Of a stretch of DNA of 64,000 nt, positions 4,598 through 42,328 are shown one piece after another (positions within the stretch are counted from its first letter, which is position 1; every line of letters begins with the position of its first letter). The DNA is taken from IMG/VR virus record IMGVR_UViG_3300025732_000026, positions 1 through 64,000 of that record. The stretch is one strand, 5' to 3'. A model generated the notes under the pieces. The model saw only the letters and a program-made list of their open reading frames with translations. It searched no databases and was not told the origin of the DNA. A program made the position numbers and the translations under genes. Source of the stretch: a virus.

Positions 4598-6268
4598 ATG
4601 AATATTTATACAGAAACAACTAATCAAAGTCAAGAAATTCCTTTATGTCCATGTGGACAACATACCCATTTAGATAAAGCATATCCAGAAAAGGGCTATA
4701 CACAGTATTGTTCAGATGCATGTTCTAAGAAATATAGAAGTCAAAATAAAGAATATAACAAAATATTATCCAATAAAGATTGGCTGATTGATCAATTCAT
4801 AGACCAGAAAAAAGCAAAATGCCAGATTGCTAAAGAACTAAATTGTTCCGAAACAGTAATCAATAAATGGCTAAAAATCCACGATATTATTAAACCAAAG
4901 AAACATTCATGTCCCGAAATTTCAACTATTAATTATAATAATATTAATTCGAACATTGAATTGACCAAAGAAAATTTAGAATTTTTAGTAAAAACATATA
5001 CAAGTAAAACAAAATTACTTGAGAAACTAAAATTAAAACCAACCCAATTTAGAAGATTGCTGAAATCATTCGACATAGAATATGATGGTAGAAAAACGAG
5101 TAACACTAGAAGAAAACATGAAATTCCATCTAAAGAAGTGCTAATCGAGTTATATGAAAATCAAAATCTAACAATATTAGATATTTCAAAGAAATTCGAA
5201 TCATCCAATGTTACTGTTAGAAAATGGTTCAAACATCATAATATTGAATTATTAGAACATGCTGTAAATATTAAAAATAAAGTGTTGCCTAAGACGCGAA
5301 AAATTATGCTTGAACGTTATGGAAATGAAGTATATTTTGCAACCGATGAAGCTAAACAAAAGATTGCTAATACATTCATTGCAAAATATGGGGTTCGATA
5401 TCATCCAATAGGAAGTATATCCAAAGCGGAATTGGAAGTTTTAGATTTTCTAAATGAATTGGAACCAGGATTTCAAAATACTAAAATATTCGGAATAGAA
5501 CTTGATGGATATAATCCAAATATCAAAGTAGCAATGGAATTCAATGGATTATATTGGCATACGGAGGGAAGGAAAGGTAAGAATTTACATGAAAGAAAAT
5601 ATCGATTATGCAAAGAAAATGATATTAGATTATTCACTATCTTCGAAGATGAATGGCGCCATAGACAATCTCAAGTTAAGTCATTTATTCGCTCGGCATT
5701 GAATAAAAATGATATTAGACTATATGCTAGAGATCTGAAATTAGAAATTGTTGAACATCGACATATAGATGCATTAAAATTTATAGAAAATCATCATATT
5801 CAAGAAGTACCTTCAATTTTGAGTATTTTAAAACATTTCATGTTACTGGATAAAAATGGTTCTATCATTTCTTGTATGACTTTTTCCAGACACCCAAGAA
5901 ACGAATCAGAAATAGTCCTAAGTCGATATTGTGTAAAATCCAATCATTCCATATTAGGAGGCGCTAAAAGATTATTCAAACATGCCATTGATTATTTCAA
6001 GTGTGATATTAAAACATGGTCTGATAATCGCTGGACCGAGGGTAATTTATATGATAGACTTGGTTTTAAATTGTATAAAAATCTACCTAAAGATTATTCA
6101 TATGTAATTCCAGGAAATAATAGTATTAGAATACCAAAACAATCAATGTCTAAAACTAAAATGAAAGCAAGTGAAAATCAAACAGAATATGAAAGAGCAT
6201 TAGAATTGGGATTTGATAGAATCTGGGACTGTGGAAAGAAAACTTGGATTTTTAAATACAATAATTAA
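4598..6268 (+). CDS. Free-standing homing endonuclease, EDxHD/Vsr-like
   Basis: 556 residues. The N-terminus has a CxC...CSxACxK zinc-binding-like segment (residues ~18-48). Three helix-turn-helix-like repeats follow, of the type xSKKFESSNVTVRKWFKHHNI. The nuclease core has Asp303, Glu314 and His321 in the block LDGY...MEFNGLYWH, the pattern of Vsr/PD-(D/E)XK-like homing enzymes. It ends with a module (RYCV..ILGGAKRLFKHAI...RIWDCGKKTW) shared with the leftward gene at 23511-25124. It sits between capsid gene 23 and the leftward block, a typical mobile intergenic position. Confidence 0.8.
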   Translation: MNIYTETTNQSQEIPLCPCGQHTHLDKAYPEKGYTQYCSDACSKKYRSQNKEYNKILSNKDWLIDQFIDQKKAKCQIAKELNCSETVINKWLKIHDIIKPKKHSCPEISTINYNNINSNIELTKENLEFLVKTYTSKTKLLEKLKLKPTQFRRLLKSFDIEYDGRKTSNTRRKHEIPSKEVLIELYENQNLTILDISKKFESSNVTVRKWFKHHNIELLEHAVNIKNKVLPKTRKIMLERYGNEVYFATDEAKQKIANTFIAKYGVRYHPIGSISKAELEVLDFLNELEPGFQNTKIFGIELDGYNPNIKVAMEFNGLYWHTEGRKGKNLHERKYRLCKENDIRLFTIFEDEWRHRQSQVKSFIRSALNKNDIRLYARDLKLEIVEHRHIDALKFIENHHIQEVPSILSILKHFMLLDKNGSIISCMTFSRHPRNESEIVLSRYCVKSNHSILGGAKRLFKHAIDYFKCDIKTWSDNRWTEGNLYDRLGFKLYKNLPKDYSYVIPGNNSIRIPKQSMSKTKMKASENQTEYERALELGFDRIWDCGKKTWIFKYNN

Positions 6269-8246: not shown

Positions 8247-8430
8247 ACCATTCCTCAAATTTAGATAATATAAATTTGGTAGCATTCGCTCCCACATCTT
8301 CAATCAATTCTATAGTAAATCGCATTATAATCTTATCAGATTCATTCACTATAATAATGCTATAATTTTCTTTTTTGCAAAAATAACCATCTGGTAAAAA
8401 TTGATTAATATTTTGTATTAGTTTATTCAT
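8227..8430 (-). CDS. Hypothetical small protein
   Basis: 67 residues; strand-rich N-terminal half and a C-terminal helix (TKFILSKFEEWYE). The start overlaps the thyX stop by four bases (8427-8430), so it is translationally coupled to thyX. The family is not recognised. Confidence 0.55.
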   Translation of the reverse strand: MNKLIQNINQFLPDGYFCKKENYSIIIVNESDKIIMRFTIELIEDVGANATKFILSKFEEWYENNSN

Positions 8431-9392
8431 AATGTTTGTCTATACTGAACCCAACCTCTAAAATTACCACTCCATCTGTTTGCATATCTATCAGTATGAG
8501 TTATACCATCCTCATAATCTTGATAACCAGCTACATGCTTCATGGGAGTTGCTTGATGCTCCATAGGAGACATATGTCTAGCGTTTAATAATTTATCGGC
8601 TAAAGCTATATCACTATCAATAACTGGGCTACTATTATCATGAGTTAGATATGATACGCGAGCGCACCTCGCAGCCGAACATTTAATAGCTTGAGTTGTA
8701 GATAAAACTCCGTTTAAATCATTATTTATTTTACCAATAGGTAGATATTCATTACCAAAAATTGGATCAGTAAAATCCTTAAACTCAACATAAGGGAGAT
8801 GCCATTCCCCTACTCCCAATTCCCTTGGTACACTATTATCCATAGCTTCTTTCATAACTCTAGCCAGCTCCCGCATTTCTGGTTGAGCGGCTGAATCTAA
8901 ACGTAACGTAAAGAAATTATCCCATTCTGTCGCAGTAACAATAACCTTAATATGTTGAAATGTATCTAGTAGTCGATTCGATACTTGTTTATGTATGTTA
9001 ATATCATTAAATCGCTTTGTCCAAAATACAGCATCCTTCGCAGCAGACTTCCATAAACTTTCAGGCACACTTCTATCTGAATATTCATTATCAGCTTGCA
9101 TTCCTGGTTGATTTATACCCCAGTGAATTGGCATTGCTGGATTCTCTTTTATTTGATCTAACATTTTTTTAACGGGAATAGCTCGACTGCTAGATGCGTT
9201 TCTACTTAACATAGGATCATCCATAAAATCTATGGATTGCTTCAGCACTACATCGTAGTTCTCATCATCCATGCTAAGTAATCTATGAGTTTTACACTCC
9301 GCATGAATAAATCGCGGATATTCTAACTCCAATGTTGTTATACGAATGTTATTAGCCACGCTATCAGCTATTATTTGTGCAGAAATTGTCAT
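8427..9392 (-). CDS. thyX: ThyX-type flavin-dependent thymidylate synthase
   Basis: 321 residues. It converts dUMP to dTMP with FAD and folate; related phage enzymes may act on other pyrimidines. Signatures are ECKTHR...SRNASSSRA (the ThyX motif), then FFTLRLDSAAQPEMRELA, and HMSPMEHQ near the C-terminus. Unusually, the motif is interrupted by about 20 residues (MDDENYDVV...DDPML) between THRLLS and SRNASS. It lies in the leftward block, apart from the other nucleotide genes. Its partners elsewhere are dCMP deaminase, dNMP kinase and NrdAB. Confidence 0.85.
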   Translation of the reverse strand: MTISAQIIADSVANNIRITTLELEYPRFIHAECKTHRLLSMDDENYDVVLKQSIDFMDDPMLSRNASSSRAIPVKKMLDQIKENPAMPIHWGINQPGMQADNEYSDRSVPESLWKSAAKDAVFWTKRFNDINIHKQVSNRLLDTFQHIKVIVTATEWDNFFTLRLDSAAQPEMRELARVMKEAMDNSVPRELGVGEWHLPYVEFKDFTDPIFGNEYLPIGKINNDLNGVLSTTQAIKCSAARCARVSYLTHDNSSPVIDSDIALADKLLNARHMSPMEHQATPMKHVAGYQDYEDGITHTDRYANRWSGNFRGWVQYRQTL

Positions 9393-14915: not shown

Positions 14916-15393
14916 TTTTATTGAATCTAAGGAATTTGTTGAACATTTAGATGCTTGGTTATTCAAATCTAATCCAAAAGATTCCAATTGGATTTATTTG
15001 AATAGAAATAAAATTCCAGAATATTTTAGAAAAAATCCAAAATATTTGTATAAGGGACTATTTGGTGTTCCAGAATTGTTCAATTTTAAAACTGGATTTG
15101 TTAAGTTACATGGTGCAGTATCATTTTCTGAAAGTCAATCTGTAGCAATACAGTTCTTAAATGATTCATCATTCAAGTTCAATGATCGAACAGATAATAA
15201 GATTAAAATATTAATTAGAAAGAAATTTCCTAGCGTTGTTTTTGACATATATAAATATTTTCTTTTCTACGGTGAAGATAAACTATTGAAAATGGGTTTT
15301 GATGAAATGAATATTGATTCGATGAAAAAAGAAAAGGAAATTTTAGTATATGACGTTAAAATTAAGTCAACTGATTTTACTATTATCAAATGA
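14908..15393 (+). CDS. Unknown protein with ADP-ribosyltransferase-like pattern
   Basis: 161 residues from a TTG that overlaps the gene 55 stop. Three blocks match, in order, the loose pattern of ADP-ribosyltransferase folds: LYKGL (47-51, where R or K is followed by G), SFSES (72-76, the S-x-S core) and EKEIL (142-146, the E-x-E turn). T4 carries such enzymes (Alt, ModA, ModB), but this protein is shorter and not closely similar. The assignment is a hypothesis from motifs only. It is tightly coupled to genes 55 and 47. Confidence 0.55.
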   Translation: MSDFIESKEFVEHLDAWLFKSNPKDSNWIYLNRNKIPEYFRKNPKYLYKGLFGVPELFNFKTGFVKLHGAVSFSESQSVAIQFLNDSSFKFNDRTDNKIKILIRKKFPSVVFDIYKYFLFYGEDKLLKMGFDEMNIDSMKKEKEILVYDVKIKSTDFTIIK

Positions 15394-16460
15394 AGATAGC
15401 AATTTTAGGTGATACTCATTTTGGCATTAGAAATGGTGATACATCATTTCATTCATATTATAAAAGATTCTATGATTTTTTTATTGAATATCTAATCGAG
15501 AATGATATTCATACCGTTATTCAAACAGGTGATTTATTTGATAATCGTAGATTTATTAATATCAATTCGTTGAAATTAGTTAGAGACTACTTCTTTGATA
15601 GACTTTTAAATAACGATATTCAATTACATACAATTATAGGTAATCATGACATCTTTAATAAAAATACAGTATCGGTTAACTCCCCTGATTTATTATTTCG
15701 AGATTATTCAAATATTACTATTCATAACAGGTTCAATACTATTAAGATTGGTGGGTTGAGTATTGATTTTGTACCTTGGATATGCGACGAAAATCATGAT
15801 GAAATAGTTGAATCCATAAAAAATAGCAAATCTGATATATGCGTGGGACATTTTGAGTTAAATAATTTTTGCATGTATCGTGGAATACCACATCTGAATG
15901 GTGAATTTGATTCTAGTTTCGTGAAGAACTATAAGATGACTATTAGTGGACACTTCCATCATAAATCAAGTTCGAAAAACATTCATTATGTTGGTACACC
16001 ATATCAACTAACATGGGCTGATTATGAAGATGATAGAGGATTTCATATTTTAGATATTGATTCATTAAAATTAGATTTTCATTTGAATCCTTTTACAATT
16101 TTTCAAAAAGTCACGTATGATGATACGATTCAAGATATGGAATATTGGACAAAAATATTCGACTATGAGAAATTAAAAGATAATTTTGTTAAATTAATAA
16201 TTGATAATAAGTCTAATCCTTATATATTTGATACTGTATTAGATCGAATTCAGAAAATAAGTATTTTAAAATTGAATATTGTTGAAAACCACAATCATAA
16301 TGAATTGGATGATTTTCAAGAAGAAACTGATACTGAAGATACTATGGCTATATTGAATCATTTTATAGATGAAAATGAATTACAATTGGACAAAAATAAG
16401 TTCAAGTCTTTGATTCATGTAATATATAATGAGGCATTAAATACTGGAGTAACGGATTGA
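15390..16460 (+). CDS. 47: Recombination nuclease subunit gp47 (SbcD/Mre11-like)
   Basis: 356 residues. Metallophosphoesterase motifs are present: GDTHFG (8-13), TGDLFDNR, IGNHDIF, and GHFHHKS with a final GTPY. With gp46 it forms the exonuclease that resects ends and degrades host DNA. The start overlaps the previous stop, and the stop overlaps the gene 46 start. The length is near T4 gp47 (339). Confidence 0.95.
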   Translation: MKIAILGDTHFGIRNGDTSFHSYYKRFYDFFIEYLIENDIHTVIQTGDLFDNRRFININSLKLVRDYFFDRLLNNDIQLHTIIGNHDIFNKNTVSVNSPDLLFRDYSNITIHNRFNTIKIGGLSIDFVPWICDENHDEIVESIKNSKSDICVGHFELNNFCMYRGIPHLNGEFDSSFVKNYKMTISGHFHHKSSSKNIHYVGTPYQLTWADYEDDRGFHILDIDSLKLDFHLNPFTIFQKVTYDDTIQDMEYWTKIFDYEKLKDNFVKLIIDNKSNPYIFDTVLDRIQKISILKLNIVENHNHNELDDFQEETDTEDTMAILNHFIDENELQLDKNKFKSLIHVIYNEALNTGVTD

Positions 16461-18169
16461 AGTTAGTATTTAAAAGTATACGGTGGAAGAATTTTTTAAG
16501 TACAGGTAATTATTGGAATTCAATTGATTTGAATATTAATGATAATGTATTGGTGTATGGAGAAAATTCTTTTGGAAAATCTACCGTGTTGGATGCCCTA
16601 TGTTTTTCATTGTATGGAAAAGCATTTAGAAACATCAATAAGGGCAATCTAATAAATTCAATTAATCAGAGAGAGTGTTTAACTGAGATTGAATTTGAAA
16701 TTAGTAATAAATCATATAGAATTCTTCGTGGCATTAAACCTAATATTTTTGAGATATATTGTAATGATGTATTATTGAATCAAGATGCCGCTATCAAGGA
16801 TTATCAAGAGTATCTCGAAAAAAATATTATCAAGCTAAATTACAAATCGTTTACTCAGATTGTAATTCTAGGTTCGGCATCTTTTACACCTTTTATGCAA
16901 TTGACGGCAGCAGATCGTAGAGGTGTTATAGAAGATTTATTGAATATTCAAATATTCTCGACTATGAATGAAATAGTCAGGAATAAGTTATCAGTAAATA
17001 AAGATTCTATTCTCGAAATGAAATATTCTAAAGATTTATTAGAACAAAGACATGATATTATTGAAAAACATTTAACAGAATCTAAGTTAGATAAGAAAAA
17101 TGAAATAGAAAAATGTGAAAATGAAATAGCAGTATTGAATTCCAATATTGTTTGTTTAAGTGAGAAAAAAGAGTCTCTAAATGAACAATTGATAAAGTAT
17201 CAGGATATCCATAAAAATTCGGCGTCAATCAAAGAATCATATGCGAAACTCCATAAAATGAAAATTAGAGGTGAAAGTAGTTTAAAGAAACTTCAAATGG
17301 AATTAAGTTTTTTTTGTGATAATGATACTTGTCCAACTTGTATGCAGGAAATCTCACCAAATATTAAAGATGAAAAAAAGAGTGAAATTTCAGAAAAAAT
17401 TAATGAGTTAAATAATACTCTTATTAAACTAGATAATAAAATTTTTATAGTTGATAAAAATAGTAGAATAATGGATAATGTTGCATCAAAAATTCAAGAA
17501 TTGAAAATGCAAATTCGAGAAATTGATATTTTATGTTCTACTAATAAAACACAAAGAGAAAATATTGCAAATAAAAAGCAATCGTTATATAATGCTAATC
17601 GATTAGTTGAAAATACCGAAAATGATTTAATTGATATTAAGAATCAGATAGATGTTATTGATGCGAAAATAATCGATCTTGTATTAGATAAGCATCATTT
17701 AGAAGCTGCCGCAAATATGTTTAAGGACAATGGTATAAAAACTAGAATCATTAAGCAATATTTACCATTGATTAATAAAACTATCAATAAATATTTGAGT
17801 TTACTTGAATTTTATGTTGATTTTTCTTTTGATGAAACTTTCAAGGAAACTATTAAATCCAGACATAGGGATGAGTTTAGTTATTATAATTTTTCAGAAG
17901 GCGAAAAATCAAAAATAAATTTAGCAATTCTTTTCTCTTGGCGAGAACTAACATTATTGAAATCATCATTTAACACAAATCTATTAGTCATGGATGAAAT
18001 CATTGATGGTGCATTAGATTTGAATGGTATTGATTGTTTTTGGAATCTGATAGGCAATTTAAAAGATTCAACTGTTTTTATAATATCACCAAAAGGTGAG
18101 AACTATCTTGATAAATTTTCAAAGAATATTAAATTTATTAAACAGAATGGTTTTTCGAAAATTGAATAA
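16457..18169 (+). CDS. 46: Recombination nuclease subunit gp46 (SbcC/Rad50-like)
   Basis: 570 residues from a TTG overlapping the gene 47 stop. Walker A is GENSFGKS (35-42). Two coiled-coil arms flank a zinc hook CPTC (292-295). The C-terminus has the ABC signature FSEGEKSKINLAILF and Walker B LLVMDEIIDGALD. It is the ATPase partner of gp47 in recombination-dependent replication and host DNA breakdown. Confidence 0.95.
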   Translation: MKLVFKSIRWKNFLSTGNYWNSIDLNINDNVLVYGENSFGKSTVLDALCFSLYGKAFRNINKGNLINSINQRECLTEIEFEISNKSYRILRGIKPNIFEIYCNDVLLNQDAAIKDYQEYLEKNIIKLNYKSFTQIVILGSASFTPFMQLTAADRRGVIEDLLNIQIFSTMNEIVRNKLSVNKDSILEMKYSKDLLEQRHDIIEKHLTESKLDKKNEIEKCENEIAVLNSNIVCLSEKKESLNEQLIKYQDIHKNSASIKESYAKLHKMKIRGESSLKKLQMELSFFCDNDTCPTCMQEISPNIKDEKKSEISEKINELNNTLIKLDNKIFIVDKNSRIMDNVASKIQELKMQIREIDILCSTNKTQRENIANKKQSLYNANRLVENTENDLIDIKNQIDVIDAKIIDLVLDKHHLEAAANMFKDNGIKTRIIKQYLPLINKTINKYLSLLEFYVDFSFDETFKETIKSRHRDEFSYYNFSEGEKSKINLAILFSWRELTLLKSSFNTNLLVMDEIIDGALDLNGIDCFWNLIGNLKDSTVFIISPKGENYLDKFSKNIKFIKQNGFSKIE

Positions 18170-18194: not shown

Positions 18195-18773
18195 ATGACT
18201 GAAATTTTAACAATTAATACTGAGCAAAATATAATTAAACATGATTTAATTGAACCATTGACAGTTTATACTGAAGGTTTTGAATCTCTAAATCAACGTA
18301 TACCCGAATACACTGGAAAATTACCAGATACTAAAATATCAAAAATTATTGATCAGTTAAAAGTGACGATGAAAAAATATAATGGCATGGGATTAGCAGC
18401 TAATCAATGCAATATTAATTTGAGATTGTTTATTTTAGGTTCAGAAAATTTTCAGTTTGTTTGTATAAATCCTAAAATATTGCGATGTTCTGATAAAATG
18501 ATTAGAGATAAGGAAGGTTGTCTTTCATATCCTGCATTATTTTTATCCAAGGAACGACCCGAAACAATTGAAGTAGAATTTTTGACGGAACAAGGTGAAC
18601 TTAAACAAGTAGAATTTTCTGGATTAACAGCTAGGATTTTCTGCCATGAATTGGATCATTTAGATGGTAAATTATTTACCGATAGTATTGGAAAAACGTC
18701 AATGCTTTTGGCTAGACAGAAGCAACAAAAATTGATCAAGAAGTTTTCGAGAATTGTTAAAAACAAATATTAA
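18195..18773 (+). CDS. def: Peptide deformylase
   Basis: 192 residues. All three deformylase motifs are present: GMGLAANQ (64-71), EGCLSYP (107-113) with the metal Cys, and HELDH (151-155) with the metal His pair and catalytic Glu. It removes the N-formyl group from new proteins. Phage-encoded deformylases are known from marine T4-like viruses, where they are thought to aid turnover of host or phage proteins. It lies between gene 46 and the sugar-transfer genes. Confidence 0.93.
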   Translation: MTEILTINTEQNIIKHDLIEPLTVYTEGFESLNQRIPEYTGKLPDTKISKIIDQLKVTMKKYNGMGLAANQCNINLRLFILGSENFQFVCINPKILRCSDKMIRDKEGCLSYPALFLSKERPETIEVEFLTEQGELKQVEFSGLTARIFCHELDHLDGKLFTDSIGKTSMLLARQKQQKLIKKFSRIVKNKY

Positions 18774-18779
18774 ATTAAA

Positions 18780-19109
18780 ATGATAGAATCGACCAAATAT
18801 GATAGTTGTTTAGATGTTAGTAGCTCAGATAGAAAAATATCTGATTTTATGGACTTATCTGAAACTGAAAAGGAAGAATTATTCATTGATAAAGAATGGA
18901 AAAAATACTGGATCAATATGCCAGAATTTGTTCAAGAGGATAAACCCCCTCATCGAAGAATTATTCTAAATTTTAGAAGTGAAGATGATTATCAAAATTT
19001 TGCAAAATTGATCGAACAAAATTTGACAGAAAAGACTAAAAGTATATGGTATCCTAAATTAGAAAAAGATGATAATTTTTTGAAACGTTGGATAGAAGTT
19101 GAAGAATAG
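18780..19109 (+). CDS. Conserved small phage protein
   Basis: 109 residues. The block WKKYWINMPEFVQEDKPPHRRIILNFRSEDDYQNFAKLI...LTEKTKSIWYPK belongs to a small domain found in many phages and often next to or fused with DNA-modifying or ParB-like proteins. No catalytic motif is visible. Here it directly precedes two glycosyltransferase-like genes, with its stop overlapping the next start. Its role is unknown. Confidence 0.65.
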   Translation: MIESTKYDSCLDVSSSDRKISDFMDLSETEKEELFIDKEWKKYWINMPEFVQEDKPPHRRIILNFRSEDDYQNFAKLIEQNLTEKTKSIWYPKLEKDDNFLKRWIEVEE

Positions 19110-20154
19110 TTTAATATATAGTGCGTGGGGCATAACGAGCGAACCAACAAAAAATCTAATAAATCAAATTAGAATTTTAAATACAACAGATTCTAAAATT
19201 AATTTATTAACTAATGCTACTACAGATTCTGGTAAAAAGTATATTGAAAATATTGCTAATATAAAAATTAGAGAGCAAATAAATTTATTTTCTAATTTTT
19301 ATGAAAACAGAGTGAAAAAACTAGAAAATTGGATTCAAGTATATGATGAATTAAATGTTTGTGATTTAGAAAAATATGATGCTTTTTATATTTTCGGTGG
19401 AATATTTTCTAGTGCCTCTAAATTAAGGCGTGGAACTGATAGAAATTATGTTTTTCCTAGAGACAATGGTCAGTTAAGATTTGAAAGTATTGGCAAACAT
19501 TTGCTAAATATTTTAGCGGTACTTAAAGCGCATACTGATTATTGTATTCCTATCCATGATATTTGTTATGATCCATTAGAATATTCTTTAAGTTTATTTC
19601 ATCCAGATTATCAACCAAAATCAAATTATTTTTTATATCATGGATATGATATGCCAGCATATAATATGCATCGATTAGATTCAATGCAATATTATTTAAA
19701 TTTCAAAAAAAAGTTTTTTCAAATAGAAAAAACTTTAGATTTCGTTTTTGGTATGACAGTAATGGAAGCAGATAGAATGTCATATTATGAGTATGCAGAT
19801 TTATTTTCTAAAAAGTTTCAAAGGAATTTTTTTGTAGCAAATAATAAATTTAATAATATTAATACATTTGTCGATAGAGATAAATATTTAAATTTTATAA
19901 GCGCATCAAAATACACATTGATTTTACCGGCATATGATACTAATTCATTCTCAATATATAGATTGATAGAATCGTTATCAAATGATTGTTTGCCATTTAT
20001 ACATCAAGATTGTATAATAGATGATGTTGAAAAATCGTTTAATGTTGATCTGAGTATGTTAAAAACTGATAAGATTTTTTCAGAATCACAACGATTGGAA
20101 ATATTAGAATATCTTAAAAGTAAAATTTTAGTTGTTGAAAAATTATTTAAATGA
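19099..20154 (+). CDS. GT-B-like glycosyltransferase, possibly acting on DNA
   Basis: 351 residues from a TTG start overlapping the previous gene by 11 bases. The N-terminal half looks Rossmann-like (SLIYSAWGITSEPT...DAFYIFGGIFSS). The C-terminal block ASKYTLILPAYDTNSFSIYRLIESLSNDCLPF is the nucleotide-sugar-binding pattern of GT-B enzymes. Next to a TET-associated-type glycosyltransferase gene it could be a second DNA glucosylation enzyme, comparable in role to T4 alpha- or beta-glucosyltransferase. The substrate is not shown by the sequence. Confidence 0.6.
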   Translation: MKNSLIYSAWGITSEPTKNLINQIRILNTTDSKINLLTNATTDSGKKYIENIANIKIREQINLFSNFYENRVKKLENWIQVYDELNVCDLEKYDAFYIFGGIFSSASKLRRGTDRNYVFPRDNGQLRFESIGKHLLNILAVLKAHTDYCIPIHDICYDPLEYSLSLFHPDYQPKSNYFLYHGYDMPAYNMHRLDSMQYYLNFKKKFFQIEKTLDFVFGMTVMEADRMSYYEYADLFSKKFQRNFFVANNKFNNINTFVDRDKYLNFISASKYTLILPAYDTNSFSIYRLIESLSNDCLPFIHQDCIIDDVEKSFNVDLSMLKTDKIFSESQRLEILEYLKSKILVVEKLFK

Positions 20155-21011
20155 CAAATCCTAGTTATCCTGTTTATATAGTTTCTAAGAAAAGATCAGA
20201 TTCAATGTTTACATCTCGTTCTTTGACTAGGATGAAAGTTCCACATTATATTGCAATCGAACCCCAAGATTTGGAAAATTATCAATTAGCTTTAGATAAT
20301 TTTAATTTGAGAAACTTTGCAACATTATTGATATTGCCTTTTAGTAATCATGGCGATGGCCCAGGTAGAGCAAGAAATTGGTGTTGGGATCATGCGATCA
20401 GTTTAAATACAGAAAGTCATTGGGTGTTGGATGATAATATTCAAGATTTTTATAGGCTACATTTAAATCAGAGAATCAGGGTAGAATCTGGATGTATTTT
20501 TAAAGCGGCAGAAGATTTTGTCGACAGATTTGAGAATGTTCCAGTAGCGGGATTCCAATATAGATTTTTTGTTGCGCCTAATAGTTATTATCCACCTTAT
20601 GTTAAAAATACTAGAATATATTCTTGTCTATTGATTAGGAATGATTGTAAACATCGTTGGCGTTCGCGTTATAATGAGGATACGATACTATCATTAGATG
20701 TATTAAAAGACGGTGATTGCACTATTCAATTTAATGCTTTTTTACAAGGAAAAGTAGCAACTCAGACAGTTAAGGGCGGCAATACAGATGAATTTTATGA
20801 CCGTGAAGGCACACTAAATAAATCTAAAATGTTAGTTGATGTTCATCCAGATGTATCAAGATTAGTTTACAGATATGGTAGATGGCATCATCATGTTAAT
20901 TATGAACCTTTTAAAAAAAATAAATTGATACTTAAATCTGGATTAAATATTCCAAAAACTATTAACAATTATGGAATGAAATTGGTAACAAATTATTCAG
21001 AAAATACTTGA
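20151..21011 (+). CDS. TET-associated-type DNA glycosyltransferase (TAGT/GREB1-C-like)
   Basis: 286 residues. The pattern PVYIVSKKRSDS, RMKVPHYIAIEPQD, LPFSNHGDGPGRARNWCWDHAI and HWVLDDNIQDFYR (Asp94-Asp95-Asn96) matches the GT-A-like family associated with TET/JBP dioxygenases. Members add sugars to hydroxymethylated pyrimidines in phage DNA. The start overlaps the preceding GT-B-like gene by four bases. No TET dioxygenase is visible in the window, so the source of hydroxymethyl bases is open. A promoter for a structured RNA overlaps its stop. Confidence 0.78.
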   Translation: MTNPSYPVYIVSKKRSDSMFTSRSLTRMKVPHYIAIEPQDLENYQLALDNFNLRNFATLLILPFSNHGDGPGRARNWCWDHAISLNTESHWVLDDNIQDFYRLHLNQRIRVESGCIFKAAEDFVDRFENVPVAGFQYRFFVAPNSYYPPYVKNTRIYSCLLIRNDCKHRWRSRYNEDTILSLDVLKDGDCTIQFNAFLQGKVATQTVKGGNTDEFYDREGTLNKSKMLVDVHPDVSRLVYRYGRWHHHVNYEPFKKNKLILKSGLNIPKTINNYGMKLVTNYSENT

Positions 21012-23510: not shown

Positions 23511-25124
23511 TTAAAGATTTATGAAATACACTTTTTGGCCACAATCAAATATTCTGATCCAATCGTTGTTGAAGCAATTTTCTTCTTCTGTAAGCGTATC
23601 GTCAAAATTATCAAATATATTTTTTAATTTATGTTTTTGAAATTCTTGCCTATTTTTGATTAATCCAGATTTATAGTAAACATATCCTGGTTTGGATTGA
23701 TGTGAATATTGAAATCCGGATTTTTCATATGAAGTGCCATCGAATAATCTTAAATCACAGAAAGTTTGAATTGATGTAATATTATGATTTTTGACTGCGT
23801 GTTTCAGTAGTTTTGAAAATCCACCTATAATATTAGTGTTTATTAGATTGCAATATCGTAATAGTTCATGTGAATATTTCTTATCGAATCTCGATTTACC
23901 AAATCCAATAACAGCAACTAATTGTTTATTATATGTTAGTCCATATCGAATAGATGAATTAACATTGCCTTGAATATGATTATATTCTAAAAATTCTTTA
24001 TATGTATTCGAATTTAGTGGAATAATTTCGCATTTTCTTGCATAAATTCTTTCATTTAGTTTTAGATTTGATTTTATTATTGATTTAATAATATCTTGTT
24101 TTTGTAACCATTCAGTATCCCATATTTGAAGTAATTTGATATTTTGATCTTTGCATAAATTATATTTTATTAAGTGTCTATTTTCATCTTCAGCGTGAAA
24201 ATACATCCCATTAAATTCGATACCTAAATTATAATCTGGAAGATAAATATCGATTTCTTTAGGTTTGATGATTGTTCTATCGTTTATTTTTAAATTAGGA
24301 ATTCCTAATGACGATATAAAATCCTGTATTTCTTTTTGTTGTTTTCCAAATTTGGTCGAAAAGAAATTTATTTCTATATTATGTTGCTTAAACCATAGAT
24401 ATACTGCCCTATATGTCACTTGTAAATCTTTGGCAATATCAGTTATTGTTTTAGTTTTATTTTGTTCTTTTAGCCATTCTTTATTCCTAAGAGCATAATA
24501 TGCTTTTTCATTTTTTGATTTTAATATTTCATCGTTTGCATTTTGAATTTTTTCTTTTATTTCGGGCACTAAACACGTATGTTCATATCCATATTTTTCT
24601 AAATTTGTTTGTTTTGCTTTATCTATGTTATTATATTTTTCGTTGCCATATCTATCTAGTTTAGTTTTTTTTATTTTTCCAACAGATTCTTGTGTTTGAA
24701 AATAGTATTCTACACCATATTTTTTTAGATTAGATTCTTTTAACTTTTCTTGTAATTTTGAATAATCATTGTTAGTTTTTATTTTTAAATTTCTTTCATC
24801 CGATTGAGTTGAACAGTATTTCGAACAATAGTCATAATATCCATCATTAAATGTATTGAAGTTTACTGTATTTGATTGGCATGTTTTACAAATAGGAATT
24901 GTGGAAAGACCATTGATAATATGATAAATTCTTTCTGAGAATAAACAATCTTTAGATAAATGCTGTGTCGATGCTAATATATCATCATAGATTTCTTTGA
25001 TATTCTTGTTGATCCACCAAGATTCAAGACACACTCTATTGTTTAATCCTGATCTACCTTTTTTGGTAAAACAGTTTGCTTCGATCCAATCTTTTTTGTT
25101 GTTTAAATAAATTTGATATTGCAT
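23511..25124 (-). CDS. Free-standing homing endonuclease, EDxHD/Vsr-like
   Basis: 537 residues. The N-terminus has a zinc-type segment CKTCQSN...YDYCSKYC. Several repeats LKKYGVEYYFQT/LDRYGNEKY/LEKYGYEHT and a helix-turn-helix (TITDIAKDLQVTYRAVYLWFKQH) follow. The nuclease core has IDIYLPDYNLGIEFNGMYFHAE (Asp, Glu, His). The C-terminal module (LLRYCNLINTNIIGGFSKLLKHAV, RIFDCGQKVY) is shared with the gene at 4598. It lies against the flow of its neighbours. Confidence 0.8.
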   Translation of the reverse strand: MQYQIYLNNKKDWIEANCFTKKGRSGLNNRVCLESWWINKNIKEIYDDILASTQHLSKDCLFSERIYHIINGLSTIPICKTCQSNTVNFNTFNDGYYDYCSKYCSTQSDERNLKIKTNNDYSKLQEKLKESNLKKYGVEYYFQTQESVGKIKKTKLDRYGNEKYNNIDKAKQTNLEKYGYEHTCLVPEIKEKIQNANDEILKSKNEKAYYALRNKEWLKEQNKTKTITDIAKDLQVTYRAVYLWFKQHNIEINFFSTKFGKQQKEIQDFISSLGIPNLKINDRTIIKPKEIDIYLPDYNLGIEFNGMYFHAEDENRHLIKYNLCKDQNIKLLQIWDTEWLQKQDIIKSIIKSNLKLNERIYARKCEIIPLNSNTYKEFLEYNHIQGNVNSSIRYGLTYNKQLVAVIGFGKSRFDKKYSHELLRYCNLINTNIIGGFSKLLKHAVKNHNITSIQTFCDLRLFDGTSYEKSGFQYSHQSKPGYVYYKSGLIKNRQEFQKHKLKNIFDNFDDTLTEEENCFNNDWIRIFDCGQKVYFINL

Positions 25125-25245: not shown

Positions 25246-26061
25246 ATGGAAATAAAAGTTAATATTGATGAATTAAAGAAAAATAAACTTTTTGTGGCGA
25301 CTCCGATGTTCGGAGGTCAGTGTAATGGTTTGTATATGAAATCATGTCTTGATTTACAGAATTTGATGAGTAGATATGGTATTGAAACTAAGTTCAGTTT
25401 TCTATTTAATGAAAGTTTAATTCAACGTGCCCGTAACTATTTAACAGATGAATTTCTTCGATCTGGTTTTACTCATATGTTATTCATAGATGCTGATATA
25501 CATTTTAATCCACAAGATATTATCGCATTAATGGCATTGGATAAAGATGTTATCGGAGCGCCATATCCTAAAAAATCTATAAACTGGAATAATGTTAAAC
25601 AAGCAGTATTGAATAATCCAGATATTGATCCTAAAGAATTAGAGAATGTTGTTGGTGAATATGTGTTTAATGTTGTTAATGGCACACAATCATTTAATGT
25701 GACAGAACCATTAGAAGTAATGGAAATTGGTACTGGATTTATGATGATTAAACGACACGTTTTTGATAAGCTAAAAGATGCGTTTCCTAAACTGGCATAT
25801 AAACCAGATCATGTTGGACAAGCAAATTTTGATGGTAGTCGATTTATTCACTCTTATTTTCCTGTAGAAATTGATACTCCTGATGGAATATTAGGTAATG
25901 GCAGTTATAGACTTCTCAGCGAAGATTATTTCTTCAATCAATTGTGGCGAAAAATTGATGGGAAAGTGTGGCTTTGTCCTTGGGTTAAACTCGGTCACGT
26001 GGGAACATACGAATTCAAAGGTAATATGAGTTCTGTCGCAGCACATACTGGCAAATTGTAA
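25246..26061 (+). CDS. GT-A type glycosyltransferase
   Basis: 271 residues. The start FVATPMFGGQCNGLY and SLIQRARNYLTDEFLRSGFTHMLFIDADIHF give a nucleotide-diphosphosugar fold with a DxD-type metal site (Asp82, Asp84). Similar enzymes are common in T4-like phages; the acceptor (surface glycan, DNA or virion protein) is unknown. A strong terminator follows. It lies divergent from the leftward nuclease gene. Confidence 0.75.
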   Translation: MEIKVNIDELKKNKLFVATPMFGGQCNGLYMKSCLDLQNLMSRYGIETKFSFLFNESLIQRARNYLTDEFLRSGFTHMLFIDADIHFNPQDIIALMALDKDVIGAPYPKKSINWNNVKQAVLNNPDIDPKELENVVGEYVFNVVNGTQSFNVTEPLEVMEIGTGFMMIKRHVFDKLKDAFPKLAYKPDHVGQANFDGSRFIHSYFPVEIDTPDGILGNGSYRLLSEDYFFNQLWRKIDGKVWLCPWVKLGHVGTYEFKGNMSSVAAHTGKL

Positions 26062-26255: not shown

Positions 26256-26528
26256 ATGAAAGAAATAGAATCTTTTGTGATTAAATCTTATGTGCTTGAA
26301 GAAAATATATTAACGATTCAAGCACAATTGGAAGGGAATAATAATCCAGTAGATAATCTATATTCTTATGATTTGAATAAGATTGAATGTTTTACATTCA
26401 TTTTTAAGAAATATTTTGAAAATTTTGTTGTATTAGAATCCTTCGTTCAGCAACATTTTAAAGGTTCTCAAGCTAGAGAGATATATAATGCAATTTATGA
26501 TTATAAGGTAAAAACTGCTAAATGTTAA
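26256..26528 (+). CDS. Hypothetical protein
   Basis: 90 residues from the ATG at 26256, with AGGTGG upstream; GTG at 26244 is the alternative. The first half is strand-like, the second helical. It overlaps the dNMP kinase start by 7 bases. The family is not recognised. Confidence 0.55.
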   Translation: MKEIESFVIKSYVLEENILTIQAQLEGNNNPVDNLYSYDLNKIECFTFIFKKYFENFVVLESFVQQHFKGSQAREIYNAIYDYKVKTAKC

Positions 26529-27160
26529 TAGGATTAGTTGGATTCGCTGGTTCTGGTAAAAATACTGTTGCCAATATTCTAAAAGAAGAGTATAATTTCC
26601 AACAATCATCATTTGCAACAAAACTCAAAGACATTGTTGCAATTTTATTTAATTGGCCAAGAGATTTGCTCGAAGGGATTACTGAAGAATCACGAATTTT
26701 TAGAGAAACGAAAGATGAGTATTGGAGTAATATTCTTGAAAGAGATGTTACTCCGAGATTTGTATTACAATATATCGGCACAAATATATTTAGAGTACAT
26801 TTTCACTCAGATTTTTGGATTCATTCATTGTTCTCGGAATTGGATTTAACTAAAAATAATGTAATATCCGATGTTAGATTTAGAAATGAGATATTAGCAA
26901 TAAAAGATTATGGTGGTATTATTCTTAGAGTGAAACGCGGCGATGATCCAATTTGGTTTAATAAATTATATTCTGCGCCATTAGTGGAAGGTATTCGTGA
27001 AGAAATCATGAAGAAATATAATTCACATCAAAGCGAATATGATTGGATATTGCCATGCTATACTGAAACAATTCATAATGATCGTGGAATAGATGATCTG
27101 AGATTATATGTAGAAACATGTATGAATAGAATTGGATTAATTGAAGGAGTTAAATTATGA
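26522..27160 (+). CDS. 1: Deoxynucleoside monophosphate kinase (gp1-like)
   Basis: 212 residues. P-loop GFAGSGKNT (7-15), then NWPRDLLEGITEESR and a lid-like region VTPRFVLQYIGTNIFRVHF, with VISDVRFRNE, all typical of T4 gene 1 kinase. It phosphorylates dTMP, dGMP and, in T4, hydroxymethyl-dCMP. It overlaps both neighbours by a few bases. The length is near T4 gp1 (241). Confidence 0.88.
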   Translation: MLIGLVGFAGSGKNTVANILKEEYNFQQSSFATKLKDIVAILFNWPRDLLEGITEESRIFRETKDEYWSNILERDVTPRFVLQYIGTNIFRVHFHSDFWIHSLFSELDLTKNNVISDVRFRNEILAIKDYGGIILRVKRGDDPIWFNKLYSAPLVEGIREEIMKKYNSHQSEYDWILPCYTETIHNDRGIDDLRLYVETCMNRIGLIEGVKL

Positions 27161-28167
27161 GTCAAGAAAAAGCTTTAGTTTTAAGAACGTGTAAAGCAGA
27201 CGGAACAAGTTATGGTGACTTTCAGTGGCCAACGGAGATTGGCTCGATTGTCAAATGTCCAGATTGGAAACCGACGAAAGAATGTGGAAACGGACTTCAT
27301 GGATTGCTGGATGGTCTTGGTGATCTTTTTCTATTGTCTAGCTCTATTGATGCCATTTGGCAGGTAGTTGAAGTTGATCGGTCGCAATGTATTGAACTAG
27401 GCGGAAAAGTCAAATTTCCTGAGTGTAAATTGGTGTATTCTGGGGATATGCTTGGTGCATTGATGCTGTTTGTTGACTATAACGTACAGCAATTGAAATC
27501 TGATGATGATTGTGCTGGATTAGTATCAACTGAAGATTATAGTCATTTAGCAGCATCTGGATATAATAGTCGATTAGCGGCATCTGGATATTATAGCCAA
27601 TTAGCTGCATCTGGAACAAACAGCCAATTAGCTGCATCTGGAAATAATAGTCAATTAGCTGCATCTGGAACAAACAGCCAATTAGCTGCATCTGGAAATA
27701 ATAGCCAATTAGCTGCATCTGGAAATAATAGCCAATTAGCTGCATCGGGGGATTTTAGTAGAATAGCGGCATCTGGATATTATAGCCAATTAGCTGCATC
27801 TGGAACAAACAGCCAATTAGCTGCATCTGGAACAAACAGCCAATTAGCTGCATCTGGAAATAATAGCCAATTAGCTGCATCTGGAAATAATAGTCAATTA
27901 GCCGCATCGGGGGATTTTAGTAGAGTAGTGACATCTGGATATTATTGTCGATTATCTGCATCTGGAAAAGGATCAATTGTAATGTGTGCAGGAGACGCAA
28001 ATACAGTTTCAGCAGGGGAAAATGGTACAATTGTGTTATCTAAGTGGAATAATATTGCGAAAAGACATGAAGTACGAGTAGGATATATTGGAGAGAATGG
28101 TCTAAAACCTAATGTTGCATATGAATTAGATCAAAATTTTGAATTTGTAGAATTTGTTGGAGTTTAA
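27157..28167 (+). CDS. Tandem nonapeptide-repeat protein
   Basis: 336 residues. The N-terminal domain (1-127) has KALVLRTCKADGTSYGDFQWP...ECGNGLHG...WQVVEVD, a unit seen in phage and bacterial repeat proteins of unknown role. Residues 128-271 are sixteen copies of a 9-residue repeat, consensus NSQLAASGx, likely a beta-solenoid. The C-terminal 65 residues are a non-repeat cap. It sits between dNMP kinase and the clamp gene, overlapping the former by four bases. It may be a surface-binding or spacer protein; function unknown. Confidence 0.75.
   Translation: MSQEKALVLRTCKADGTSYGDFQWPTEIGSIVKCPDWKPTKECGNGLHGLLDGLGDLFLLSSSIDAIWQVVEVDRSQCIELGGKVKFPECKLVYSGDMLGALMLFVDYNVQQLKSDDDCAGLVSTEDYSHLAASGYNSRLAASGYYSQLAASGTNSQLAASGNNSQLAASGTNSQLAASGNNSQLAASGNNSQLAASGDFSRIAASGYYSQLAASGTNSQLAASGTNSQLAASGNNSQLAASGNNSQLAASGDFSRVVTSGYYCRLSASGKGSIVMCAGDANTVSAGENGTIVLSKWNNIAKRHEVRVGYIGENGLKPNVAYELDQNFEFVEFVGV
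27538..27969 (+). repeat. Sixteen 27-bp coding tandem repeats
   Basis: Sixteen in-frame 27-bp units encode YSQLAASG-type nonapeptides. Many central units are identical (for example AGCCAATTAGCTGCATCTGG). Two larger blocks, each running from a YYSQ unit to a DFSR unit, show a higher-order duplication, so copy number probably changes by recombination. Confidence 0.95.
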
Positions 28168-30842: not shown

Positions 30843-31280
30843 ATGACAGAAAAAGAATTAAAATATCATACTTTGTACTTAGATATAGCAGAACGAATCT
30901 CTCAAATGAGTCATGCGCGAAGATTGCGAGTTGGAGCATTAATTGAGAAAAACGGTACTATTATTTCCATGGGATGGAATGGTACACCTAAAGGATTTCA
31001 CAATAATTGTGAACATGAATATTTTGATGAAATAGGTAATTGTACGTTAGAAACTAAAAATGAAACAATTCATGCTGAAATGAATGCCATTGGCAAATTG
31101 GCAGAAAATGGAATTTCTGCATCCGGTTCCAATTTGTATTTGACCCATTCCCCATGTCTTGAATGCTCGAAATTGATACAACGAGCCGGAATCAAAACAG
31201 TAATTTACAAGAAAGAGTATCGTAATGATAATGGAATTAGATTTTTAAAAAAATGTGGTGTGGAGATTTACAAATTATGA
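30843..31280 (+). CDS. cd: dCMP deaminase
   Basis: 145 residues. Zinc site HAE (77-79) with catalytic Glu79, and PCLEC (104-108). The loop WNGTPKGFHNNCEHEY is typical of ComE/dCMP deaminases. It makes dUMP for thymidylate synthesis, feeding ThyX. It is shorter than T4 Cd (193). Its stop overlaps the next start by four bases. Confidence 0.93.
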   Translation: MTEKELKYHTLYLDIAERISQMSHARRLRVGALIEKNGTIISMGWNGTPKGFHNNCEHEYFDEIGNCTLETKNETIHAEMNAIGKLAENGISASGSNLYLTHSPCLECSKLIQRAGIKTVIYKKEYRNDNGIRFLKKCGVEIYKL

Positions 31281-31717
31281 AACGTATAGGATTCACTTGC
31301 TCTACTTTTGATTTACTTCACGCTGGACATATTATGATGTTGCAGGAAGCTAAAGAACATTGTGATATACTGATAGTGGGATTACAGATTGATCCTACTG
31401 TTGATAGACCCGAAAAAAATAAACCTATTCAATCTATTGTTGAGAGATTTATTCAATTAAAAGCAATAAAATATGTTGATGAGATTGTTCCTTATCATAC
31501 AGAAAATGATTTACTGGATATTCTAAAAGCATTTCCTATTGATATTAGATTTGTTGGTGATGAATACACTATTAAAGATTTTACCGGCAAAACATATTGT
31601 AGTGAAAATAATATTGAATTATTTTATAATTCAAGAAAACATAGTTGGTCAACAACTGAATTGCGTAATAGGATTTATGGAACATCATCTGTTGGCGGTT
31701 TAAAATATAAATTATAG
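31277..31717 (+). CDS. Cytidylyltransferase-like nucleotidyltransferase
   Basis: 146 residues from the ATG at 31277. Motifs GFTCSTFDLLHAGHIMMLQEAK (the HxGH site: His-Ala-Gly-His) and YNSRKHSWSTTELRNRI match the TagD/glycerol-3-phosphate cytidylyltransferase-like family. It would join CTP or ATP to a small phosphate substrate. It could serve the glycan island or lipid and cofactor metabolism; the substrate is not shown. Confidence 0.8.
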   Translation: MKRIGFTCSTFDLLHAGHIMMLQEAKEHCDILIVGLQIDPTVDRPEKNKPIQSIVERFIQLKAIKYVDEIVPYHTENDLLDILKAFPIDIRFVGDEYTIKDFTGKTYCSENNIELFYNSRKHSWSTTELRNRIYGTSSVGGLKYKL

Positions 31718-31808: not shown

Positions 31809-32237
31809 ATGAACGTTTTTGAAGATCAAGCAAAATTTATGTTAGCAGTTGATAATACTGTTGGTGAATTTAATCCAAAACAATTTAAGTTGTATTTGAA
31901 ATTAATAGTTGAAGAATTTATCGAATTATTGGATGATAGTGAGTCGGGTAATAGGATCGATCAATTAGATGATTTAATTGATTTGTTGGTAGTCACAATC
32001 GGAACAATACATTCACTGGGAGTAAATCCAGAAGATGCTTGGAAAGAGGTAATACGATCTAATATGAGTAAAGTTGATCCTATTACTGGTAAAGTATTGA
32101 AACGCGAAGATGGGAAGGTTATTAAGCCAGAAGCATATTCATCTCCATTCTTAAATAATTGTGTGATTGGTGATGAATTGAACCAATTCGATTATTCAGA
32201 TGTAATTGCTGAGTTAAAAACTAAATTAGGAGTATAA
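31809..32237 (+). CDS. MazG-like nucleotide pyrophosphohydrolase
   Basis: 142 residues. The all-alpha NTP-PPase pattern KLIVEEFIELLDD followed by IDQLDDLIDLLVVTIG supplies the Glu/Asp metal ligands. In phages this fold hydrolyses dNTPs (dUTP, dCTP) or ppGpp. T4 gp56 has a related role in removing dCTP, so a part in excluding a base is possible but not shown. Confidence 0.8.
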   Translation: MNVFEDQAKFMLAVDNTVGEFNPKQFKLYLKLIVEEFIELLDDSESGNRIDQLDDLIDLLVVTIGTIHSLGVNPEDAWKEVIRSNMSKVDPITGKVLKREDGKVIKPEAYSSPFLNNCVIGDELNQFDYSDVIAELKTKLGV

Positions 32238-32551: not shown

Positions 32552-34663
32552 GTGTACTATACAAATGTTGCGGTTCTTGGGAATAATATCTGTCTTAGAG
32601 GTATAAAGAATGGTAAAAGATTTAACTCTAAGATTCAATATAAACCTAGTTTATATGTCAGATCAGAAATCGATTCGATATATAAAACTATTCATAGTGA
32701 AAATTTAGATAAAATTGAATTTGATAATATTAAATCTACCAGAGAATTTATTAACTCGTATAAAGATGTTGAGAATTTTTCAATATATGGAAATCAATCA
32801 TTTGAGTATGCTTTTATTGCAGATAATTTTAAAAATGAAATTGAATGGAATATAGATGACATATCAATTGCAATTGTTGATATTGAAACGTATAGTGCCA
32901 ATGGATTTCCAGATCCCGAGAAAGCTGAACATCCGATAACAGCTATTACCATACGGTATTTGAAACAATATTCAATATCATTCGCATGTGGTGAATATAC
33001 ACCTAAATTCACAAATTCAAAATATATAAATTGTTTAGATGAATATGATTTGTGTGTCAAATTTGTGAATTATTGGAATAAAAATTGTCCAGATATAATG
33101 ACAGGTTGGAATATTCAAGGATTTGATATTGCATATTTATTCAATCGAATATCTAAAATATGTGGAGAAACAGAAGTTCAAAAATTATCTCCTTGGGGTG
33201 TTATCAATAAATCTCAAAAATTTTCAAAAACGACCGGTAAAGCATATAGTATATATAAAATATATGGAATAGCAGTATTAGATTATCTTGATTTATATAA
33301 ACAATTTTCACCAGTTAAACAAGAATCTTATAAATTGGATGTAATTTGTAATTATGAGTTGGGTACTGGTAAATTAAATTATGATGAATATAGTTCCTTG
33401 CACCAATTATATGTTCAAAATTTTGAGAAATTTATTGATTATAATATTATTGATTGTGAGTTGATAGAACACCTAGAAGATAAGCTAAAGCTAATAGAAC
33501 TTGCTGCGACATTGGCATATGATACTAAATCTCAGTTCGAAGATGTGTTCACACAAACTAGAATGTGGGATGCAATTATATATAATCATCTACTAGCCAA
33601 TAATGTGATAATTCCTGCCAAGGAAATTTCAACAAAGGACGTTAAATTTGAGGGGGCATATGTTAAAGACCCCGTAGTTGGAAAATATAAAAATGTTGTT
33701 TCGTTTGATCTTGAGAGTTTATATCCTAGTTTGATTCAGCAATATAATTTGAGTCCCGATACAATTATCGAACCGGAAAATTATACACCAGAGATACGAG
33801 AAATCGTATCGCGGAATATAACAGTTGATAAATTATTGAATCAGGAAATCGATTTTTCTAAATTACAAAATGTCGTAATGGCAGCTAATGGTCATTTTTT
33901 TAGAATTGGTAAACAAGGATTTTTACCAGAAATATTGGCAAAAATGGGTGCTGATCGAAAAAAATATAAGAGATTGATGCTCGATACCAAGAAAGAATTA
34001 GAAAAACACAAAATCAATAATACATTAACTGATGATATTTTAAATGAATTAGAAAGAAAAATTGCCAGATATAATAATCTTCAATTGGCAAAAAAGGTTC
34101 AATCCAATTCGGGTTTTGGCACGCTAGGCAGCGCGTATTTTAGATTTTTTGATACCAGAATCGCAGAAGCGATAACGTTATCAGGACAATTGGCTGTTAG
34201 GTGGGTTGAACAAGAAGTAGATAAACTATTGAATCATTTATTAAAAACGGAAAACGAGAATTATTGTTTGTATTCTGATACTGATAGTTGTTTTTTGCTT
34301 TTAAATCAAGTAGTTAGTAGAGCAAGTATAGATCATTCAGTAGTTGAGAATAGAATAAATTTTCTGGATAAATTATGTGATACTATTATTCAACCACATA
34401 TTCAAAAAGCATATGATAAATTGTTTCGATATATTGGTGGATATGAGAATAAAATGTATATGAAACGTGAGAAAATATGTTCAGATGTTATTTTTACCGG
34501 AAAAAAACATTATATTCTGAGTGTATATGATAATGAGGGTGTTCGATATTCTGAACCTCAGTTGGCAATAGTTGGATTGGAAATGATTAAAACTTCTACT
34601 CCAACTATTATTCGAGATAAATTAAAGAACTTGTTAAAATTTTATTATATGGTACAGAAGTAG
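32552..34663 (+). CDS. 43: DNA polymerase gp43, N-terminal part (frame broken)
   Basis: 703 residues from a GTG. It is a family B polymerase with exonuclease DIETYS (~residue 110), NIQGFDIAYLF, polymerase SFDLESLYPSLIQQYN, KKVQSNSGFGTLGS and YSDTDSCF. The frame ends 44 bases before the next fragment. T4 gp43 is 898 residues; about 150 C-terminal residues are missing here. The matching sequence continues in the -1 frame from the run AAAATTTT near 34636-34643. Confidence 0.93.
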   Translation: MYYTNVAVLGNNICLRGIKNGKRFNSKIQYKPSLYVRSEIDSIYKTIHSENLDKIEFDNIKSTREFINSYKDVENFSIYGNQSFEYAFIADNFKNEIEWNIDDISIAIVDIETYSANGFPDPEKAEHPITAITIRYLKQYSISFACGEYTPKFTNSKYINCLDEYDLCVKFVNYWNKNCPDIMTGWNIQGFDIAYLFNRISKICGETEVQKLSPWGVINKSQKFSKTTGKAYSIYKIYGIAVLDYLDLYKQFSPVKQESYKLDVICNYELGTGKLNYDEYSSLHQLYVQNFEKFIDYNIIDCELIEHLEDKLKLIELAATLAYDTKSQFEDVFTQTRMWDAIIYNHLLANNVIIPAKEISTKDVKFEGAYVKDPVVGKYKNVVSFDLESLYPSLIQQYNLSPDTIIEPENYTPEIREIVSRNITVDKLLNQEIDFSKLQNVVMAANGHFFRIGKQGFLPEILAKMGADRKKYKRLMLDTKKELEKHKINNTLTDDILNELERKIARYNNLQLAKKVQSNSGFGTLGSAYFRFFDTRIAEAITLSGQLAVRWVEQEVDKLLNHLLKTENENYCLYSDTDSCFLLLNQVVSRASIDHSVVENRINFLDKLCDTIIQPHIQKAYDKLFRYIGGYENKMYMKREKICSDVIFTGKKHYILSVYDNEGVRYSEPQLAIVGLEMIKTSTPTIIRDKLKNLLKFYYMVQK

Positions 34664-34707
34664 AATTACAAGAAGATATTTTACATTTTGAGAAAAAATT
34701 TATAGAA

Positions 34708-37551: not shown

Positions 37552-37599
37552 AATGTTTGGAATAATAAATAACTGTATACCACTAAAAAGGATACAGTT

Positions 37600-42321: not shown

Positions 42322-42328
42322 AGGTTAC

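Follow-up and report, generated by a model that had tools for sequence, protein, structure and literature searches.

A probable DNA-glycosylation cassette of a T4-like myovirus, with a detached TAGT domain and a GT-B gene of an unnamed family

Three overlapping genes of an uncultured T4-like myovirus (Table 1) are very probably DNA-hypermodification machinery, and we put the probability that they form a post-replicative DNA-glycosylation unit at about three in four. The cassette consists of a small first gene (Ndom), a middle gene (midGT) and a last gene of the TAGT family. Well supported is a cassette with an unexplained precursor step and with two genes that, judged by sequence comparison, belong to families unnamed in the libraries searched (Pfam, PHROGs and NCBIfam). 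In a survey from 2026, 288 of 753 phage genomes have a TAGT homologue without an alpha-GT or beta-GT, and its conclusion was that new transferases may be encoded there (PMC13216743); solitary TAGTs still pose an open problem (PMC13216743; PMC13390438). midGT is a concrete candidate for such an absent partner: its family is defined, its fold model is confident, and its operons tie it to cytosine modification.

The stretch of DNA analysed (the window, 64,000 nucleotides) covers the first 64 kb of an IMG/VR virus record of 88,566 bases. A 99.9%-identical contig extends the left flank by 6 kb, with gp18-, gp19- and gp20-like genes, to a total of 94,576 bases. The sequence of this virus population is incomplete, with 94.6 kb recovered and most structural genes absent. 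Its gp23 is about 61% identical to those of T4-like phages of Prochlorococcus and Synechococcus and of Pelagibacter phage HTVC008M, which places the virus as a T4-like myovirus near this group.

Table 1. The cassette and other features of the window discussed in the text
Feature	Coordinates	Strand	Remark
Ndom, 109 aa	18780..19109	+	Free-standing version of the N-terminal domain fused to TAGT elsewhere
midGT, 351 aa, TTG start	19099..20154	+	Predicted GT-B glycosyltransferase, family without database model
TAGT (PF20691)	20151..21011	+	GT-A-type glycosyltransferase by profile and motif
gp47 and gp46 recombination nuclease genes	15390..18169	+	Conserved left neighbours of the cassette (context only)
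Peptide deformylase	18195..18773	+	Left neighbour of Ndom, conserved in the clade (context only)
GT-A-like protein (Anp1-like, phrog_1574)	25246..26061	+	Role uncertain
gp1-type deoxynucleoside monophosphate kinase (DNMK)	26522..27160	+	Pfam
dCMP deaminase	30843..31280	+	Pfam; homologues directly before Ndom in several relatives
Cytidylyltransferase-like sugar-phosphate nucleotidyltransferase (TagD / HldE-C type)	31253..31717	+	Candidate sugar-donor maker
MazG/PRA-PH-like pyrophosphohydrolase	31809..32237	+	Pfam; possible dNTP pool editing

The three genes overlap by 11 nt (19099/19109) and 4 nt (20151/20154), as a preliminary description of the window had reported. Its assignment of the last gene to the TAGT family holds as well. 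The protein matches PF20691 with 139.7 bits (cut-off 27.5; E=1.6e-40) over model positions 1-205 of 205 and phrog_842, 'beta-glucosyl-HMC-alpha-glucosyltransferase', at 4.8e-45, and both of the reported blocks, VLDDNIQDFYR and PGRARNW, are found. A profile scan detected TAGTs on 477 IMG/VR contigs; the loci surveyed here are the best 80 of these 477, together with the midGT loci. PGRARN is kept in 83 of 83 related TAGTs. The GT-A donor/metal motif is VLDDN in the TAGT of the window and HW-x-x-D-[DC]-N in 82 of the 83 relatives. A search of PDB sequences gave no match for midGT or TAGT and chance-level matches alone for Ndom. A literature model of the T6 TAGT has a GT-A fold (PMC13216743). The TAGT of T2 and T6 adds a second glucose onto alpha-glucosyl-hmC (PMC13216743; PMC13390438). 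It shares with the TAGT of the window the PF20691 family, above the cut-off, and a DDN-type motif. However, T2 and T6 also possess gp42 and an alpha-GT, whereas the virus described here has an unrelated GT-B enzyme, a split N-terminal domain and no gp42 in 94.6 kb.

The preliminary description counted the small first gene as part of the cassette, which stands, but it missed that this gene is the detached N-terminal domain of the TAGT. For Ndom, Pfam, PHROGs and NCBIfam offer no convincing family. Pfam matches within its family are scattered (Smg4_UPF3 in 8 of 31, best 1.1e-5), and its AlphaFold2 model has a low pLDDT of 61 and was not used for the fold. A tblastn search with the 109-aa Ndom finds matches directly before the TAGT in Aeromonas and Tenacibaculum phages (31-38% identity). 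Ndom is the N-terminal part of the TAGT protein in Aeromonas phages Aeh1 (gp093) and 65 (ST65p128), Tenacibaculum phage PTm1 (ORF-209), Pectobacterium phage POP12 (POP12_148) and Vibrio phage Kuja, the last with two tandem copies (translated and aligned). The TAGT part of these proteins shares about 47-53% identity with that of the window; the two domains form one polypeptide there, whereas in the window each has its own gene and a GT-B gene lies between. In the clade, the core motif of Ndom is W-x-x-MP ... FR-x-x-x-D ... TK-x-x-W-x-P. Of 83 IMG/VR TAGT loci, 79 have Ndom as a separate upstream gene and 2 have it fused to the TAGT (81 in all); the two loci without it are both at contig edges. 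Among 84,980 scanned genomes of bacteria and archaea, four Ndom matches were confirmed, each with a TAGT immediately after. One of the four lies on a terminase-bearing contig in a Saccharibacteria MAG (L201:3530-5072), probably a phage or prophage, which carries Ndom fused behind a ParB-like domain (phrog_498 'DNA methyltransferase', 6.3e-13; phrog_620, ParB-like, 1.3e-12), then a frame-broken TAGT. The simplest reading is that Ndom is a dedicated partner that would bring the TAGT to DNA, and Ndom is likely its putative substrate-docking partner.

The usual acceptor of the TAGT is unaccounted for, since no hydroxymethylase, 5-hydroxy-dCMP synthase or TET gene was found in the recovered sequence of this population or of 13 clade relatives. 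The window had been described as devoid of a visible TET or gp42-type hydroxymethylase, and searches for TET_JBP and for the thymidylate synthase (TS) family extend this statement to the 88.6-kb record. Inspection by eye reveals no TS-family or TET_JBP gene among the ORFs of the 6-kb extra left flank, and T4 gp42 and the RB69 pathway proteins have no match in the 94.6 kb (phmmer; for RB69 nothing at E<0.1). Neither a TS-family gene nor, at E<=1, a Tet_JBP dioxygenase (PF12851) is found in any of 14 clade contigs (48.5 to 162.3 kb, about 1.2 Mb, unclosed, own record included), and the gp42/RB69-048c profile has no match in the 13 clade contigs searched. No linked source of hydroxylated pyrimidine (TET/JBP or TS-family) for the TAGT is thereby found in the 88.6-kb record and the 13 clade contigs. 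The hydroxyl may stem from a new enzyme, from the host or from a gene lost from the assemblies, or else the TAGT may use another acceptor. In jumbo phages no TET/JBP was found, from which it was concluded that their hmC is made at the nucleotide level (PMC7824862).

A conventional precursor would remove the difficulty: a gp42-type enzyme or a 5-hydroxy-dCMP synthase may lie in the unsequenced part of the genome, and the product would be an ordinary T-even- or RB69-like sugar-cytosine. The incomplete record fits this explanation, as do the TS-family genes found in all six complete reference phages checked and the example of PTm1, which combines an RB69-048c-like enzyme with a TAGT. However, two of the 13 relatives without a TS-family match are as long as 152 kb (G021) and 162 kb (G020), the longer one with many structural, replication and lysis genes, and the TS-family genes of Aeh1, POP12 and 65 keep Asn177 and resemble thymidylate or dUMP enzymes. 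We consider a conventional precursor unlikely.

Two other candidates for the hydroxylation step were rejected. The odd ThyX noted in the window (8427-9392, minus strand) is indeed a divergent ThyX, but a circularly permuted thymidylate synthase is a better reading of it than a role in the pathway. Its motifs are permuted (residues 241-278 align with canonical 42-76, and 153-178 with 192-217), and we read it as a plain source of dTMP and not as an hmU synthase; the motif order was judged against the canonical ThyX of G020, which is weak pairwise evidence. In G020 and G021 a canonical ThyX (dTMP source) lies between primase and RNR, and none lies there in the population of the window. The 2OG-Fe(II) oxygenases are too patchy: PF13759 is clear in G020 alone, and PF13640 occurs in 7 of the 14 clade contigs but not in the record of the window. 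The gp1-type kinase, the MazG-like protein and the dCMP deaminase, also noted previously, are all confirmed by Pfam.

The usual gene order in the clade is gp47, gp46, peptide deformylase, Ndom, a variable slot and TAGT. Of the 79 loci with a separate Ndom, 54 have an empty slot between Ndom and TAGT. Elsewhere it holds midGT (9 loci), a class-I methyltransferase (7), a second TAGT (5; PF20691 at 9e-8), an FkbM methyltransferase (2; 2.6e-14) or other genes (2, one of them a GT4-type glycosyltransferase, L107). Such swapping would be expected of a module whose end product is selected by DNA-targeting defences, and Ndom with its variable slot offers a way into the question of how DNA glycans are varied by phages that face type IV restriction and DNA glycosylases as defences. 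A dCMP deaminase lies immediately 5' of Ndom in several loci, and MazG-like genes are nearby in others. One locus (L169:5386-8895) contains, in a row, a cytidylyltransferase, a sugar-kinase-like gene, a dCMP deaminase, Ndom, an HNH-type ORF and a TAGT in which DCN replaces DDN.

The middle gene was correctly seen as GT-B-like, but its nature as an insert between Ndom and TAGT had been missed. midGT has no Pfam match (E<=0.5), no NCBIfam match and no significant PHROG match; members of its family show weak Pfam matches to RXYLT1_C and GT47. Its AlphaFold2 model, based on 19 family members, has a pLDDT of 91.8 and a pTM of 0.89 and is a GT-B fold. Foldseek matches this model to GT-B enzymes (best 2.5e-6; MurG, BshA, OGT, epimerases), which are generic for the fold and uninformative on the acceptor. 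Viral structural matches include a weak one to a protein of the cyanophage S-TIM5 labelled 'DNA alpha-GT' (1.2e-5). In the C-terminal domain, R288 and E291 (numbering of the window protein) are invariant in the 19 family members. The T4 alpha-GT and beta-GT (GT63/GT72) share the GT-B fold with the midGT model, but midGT matches neither PF11440 nor PF09198 (E<=0.5) and has no detectable sequence similarity to the T4 beta-GT. By its context midGT would resemble a DNA glycosyltransferase, but it is not a member of the T4 alpha-GT/beta-GT families.

Operon context is the strongest functional evidence for midGT. A profile scan detected 42 IMG/VR midGT loci. Relatives in cultured phages are few, namely in Vibrio phages Va1, phiKT1024, phiTY18, pv27 and their relatives, in Pseudoalteromonas phage XG4 and in Agathobaculum phage AB434P2. 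Clustering at 90% gives 25 clusters, nine of them beside a TAGT, nine in a hypermodification-type operon or beside a TS-family gene, and seven alone. As 18 of the 25 clusters have TAGT or sugar-nucleotide/hydroxymethylase-type neighbours, this distribution argues for DNA-hypermodification and not surface-glycan machinery. In the first type of context (type A), midGT lies beside the TAGT, often with Ndom before it (window, L033, L053, L055, L066-L068, L083); in a variant, a cytidylyltransferase gene directly precedes midGT, which is followed by a fused Ndom-TAGT (L035, L069-L071). The order Ndom-midGT-TAGT recurs at unrelated sites, at gp46 (window, L066-L068), gp43 (L033) and uvsX (L053), which suggests that the cassette moves as one unit.

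The second type of context (type B) is an operon of a TS-family enzyme, a HAD protein, an NTP-transferase/phosphotransferase, a second GT-B enzyme, midGT and a DNA cytosine methylase. It is complete in L036, L076-L078, L080, L084 and XG4 and present in parts in L075, L079, L081 and L082. The operon of AB434P2 comprises MazG, a kinase, HAD, a cytidylyltransferase, a GT-B enzyme, a TS-family enzyme and midGT. The TS-family enzymes of XG4, AB434P2 and L036 have Asp at the position of Asn177 in thymidylate synthase, and those of L036 and XG4 match T4 gp42 at 2.7e-96 and 6e-66, respectively. The Asp/Asn switch at this position is established for gp42. Based on the Asp and the strong gp42 matches, the type B enzymes should use dCMP; cytosine is probably the more likely base in our virus too, because relatives of midGT adjoin such dCMP-type hydroxymethylases.

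A possible arabinosylation of phage POP12, which no paper found here confirms, was set aside. RB69-type phages carry arabinose on 5-hydroxycytosine, which is made by a TS-family enzyme (PMC13390438). Their arabinosylation cluster comprises 5-hydroxy-dCMP synthase, NTP-transferase/phosphotransferase, HAD, arabinose-5-P isomerase and glycosyltransferases. Homologues of RB69 ORF048c, 051c, 052c and 053c occur in type B operons with relatives of midGT, whereas none of the cluster genes was found in the incomplete genome of the window population, and ORF003c and ORF050c lack similarity to midGT. The second GT-B of the gp42-type operons was considered as an RB69 arabinosyltransferase and rejected, as it has no phmmer similarity to ORF003c or ORF050c.

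midGT may also be a passenger, an accessory glycosyltransferase with another target inserted between Ndom and TAGT, in which case Ndom and TAGT alone would be directed at DNA. The many empty slots, the unrelated genes that occupy the same slot elsewhere and the seven midGT clusters that stand alone are compatible with this explanation. It is nevertheless quite improbable, given that five 95%-TAGT clusters, located at different places in their genomes, have midGT in this slot, and that midGT also occurs independently inside gp42-type operons without a TAGT.

For the cassette as a DNA-glycosylation unit, we propose the following mechanism. The TAGT, a predicted GT-A enzyme, would add a sugar either to an activated pyrimidine or to a sugar that the base already bears, and midGT, a predicted GT-B enzyme, would do the other glycosyl step, so that a base with two sugars (or one capped alternatively) is probably present in the phage DNA. 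DNA as acceptor and the order of the two transfers are inferred. Ndom would be the detached substrate-docking domain of the TAGT. The donor sugar nucleotide probably comes from the cytidylyltransferase-like enzyme and/or from host pathways, and dCMP deaminase, the MazG-like protein and the gp1 kinase may shape the nucleotide pool. The gene of the cytidylyltransferase-like enzyme overlaps that of dCMP deaminase, and the protein is 55% identical to the product of a gene adjoining the midGT operon of AB434P2. The Anp1-like GT-A-like protein recurs 3' of the TAGT and of gp42-type operons. The glycosylated cytosine or thymine proposed in the preliminary description is thus upheld in part: the Ndom-TAGT fusions, the linkage of ParB-like domain, Ndom and TAGT, and the midGT operons with gp42-type, sugar-nucleotide and DNA-methylase genes point to a hypermodification cassette, but base, sugar and hydroxymethyl acceptor are unproven, and the clade contigs lack a TS-family or TET source.

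A bolder and doubtful proposal is that a large uncultured clade of T4-like viruses glycosylates its DNA via Ndom, slot gene and TAGT without a TS- or TET-type hydroxylase, by means of a new activating enzyme or at a different atom, while the slot gene tailors the glycan. If true, the slot gene (midGT, second TAGT, GT4, FkbM or other methyltransferase) would act on the DNA glycan like serotype-converting genes on O-antigen. With no known hydroxylase in the clade contigs, the substrate of the TAGT becomes a directly testable question.

That the two transferases instead decorate host LPS/capsule or virion proteins and thereby block superinfection is highly improbable: a polysaccharide-type cluster (41644-50234) lies in the same genome, such clusters are carried by T4-like cyanophages (PMC7824862) and slot genes of relatives include FkbM-type methyltransferases, but the cassette is about 20 kb from that cluster, among recombination/replication genes (gp46/47), the TAGT belongs to a DNA-modification family, and homologues of midGT adjoin gp42-type enzymes and a DNA cytosine methylase, and Ndom joins a ParB-like domain.

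Several further features of this virus were recorded. The cluster at 41644-50234, likely surface-glycan genes, contains GT-like ORFs, a HAD+NTP_transferase fusion, a TylF-type methyltransferase, an NAD epimerase and a GDPD-like ORF. The gp41 helicase gene (36208-39350) consists of two ORFs that end and start in intein-like halves (36208-37551 and 38904-39350), with an endonuclease-like ORF between them (37600-38925), which we take to resemble the known fractured gp41 split-intein arrangement. DNA polymerase gp43 (32552-35097) is present as two ORFs (32552-34663 and 34708-35097), which are one ORF in G020 and in G021. The portal gp20-like ORF (L022:1872-4775) has 967 aa, apparently with an intein and a homing endonuclease, and its homologue in G020 is much shorter. 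Large ORFs at 4598-6268 (plus strand) and 23511-25124 (minus strand) contain DUF7487 and acetyltransferase- or endonuclease-like regions and are possibly Mom-like/endonuclease fusions as described for jumbo phages. A ribose-phosphate pyrophosphokinase-like gene followed by a nicotinamide phosphoribosyltransferase-like gene (L002:434-3063, record about 63434-66063; identified by eye) may serve NAD+ salvage. In the middle of the ORF at 27157-28167 a short Q-L-A-A-S-G motif is repeated many times in tandem, and the antisense strand of this ORF is partly open too.
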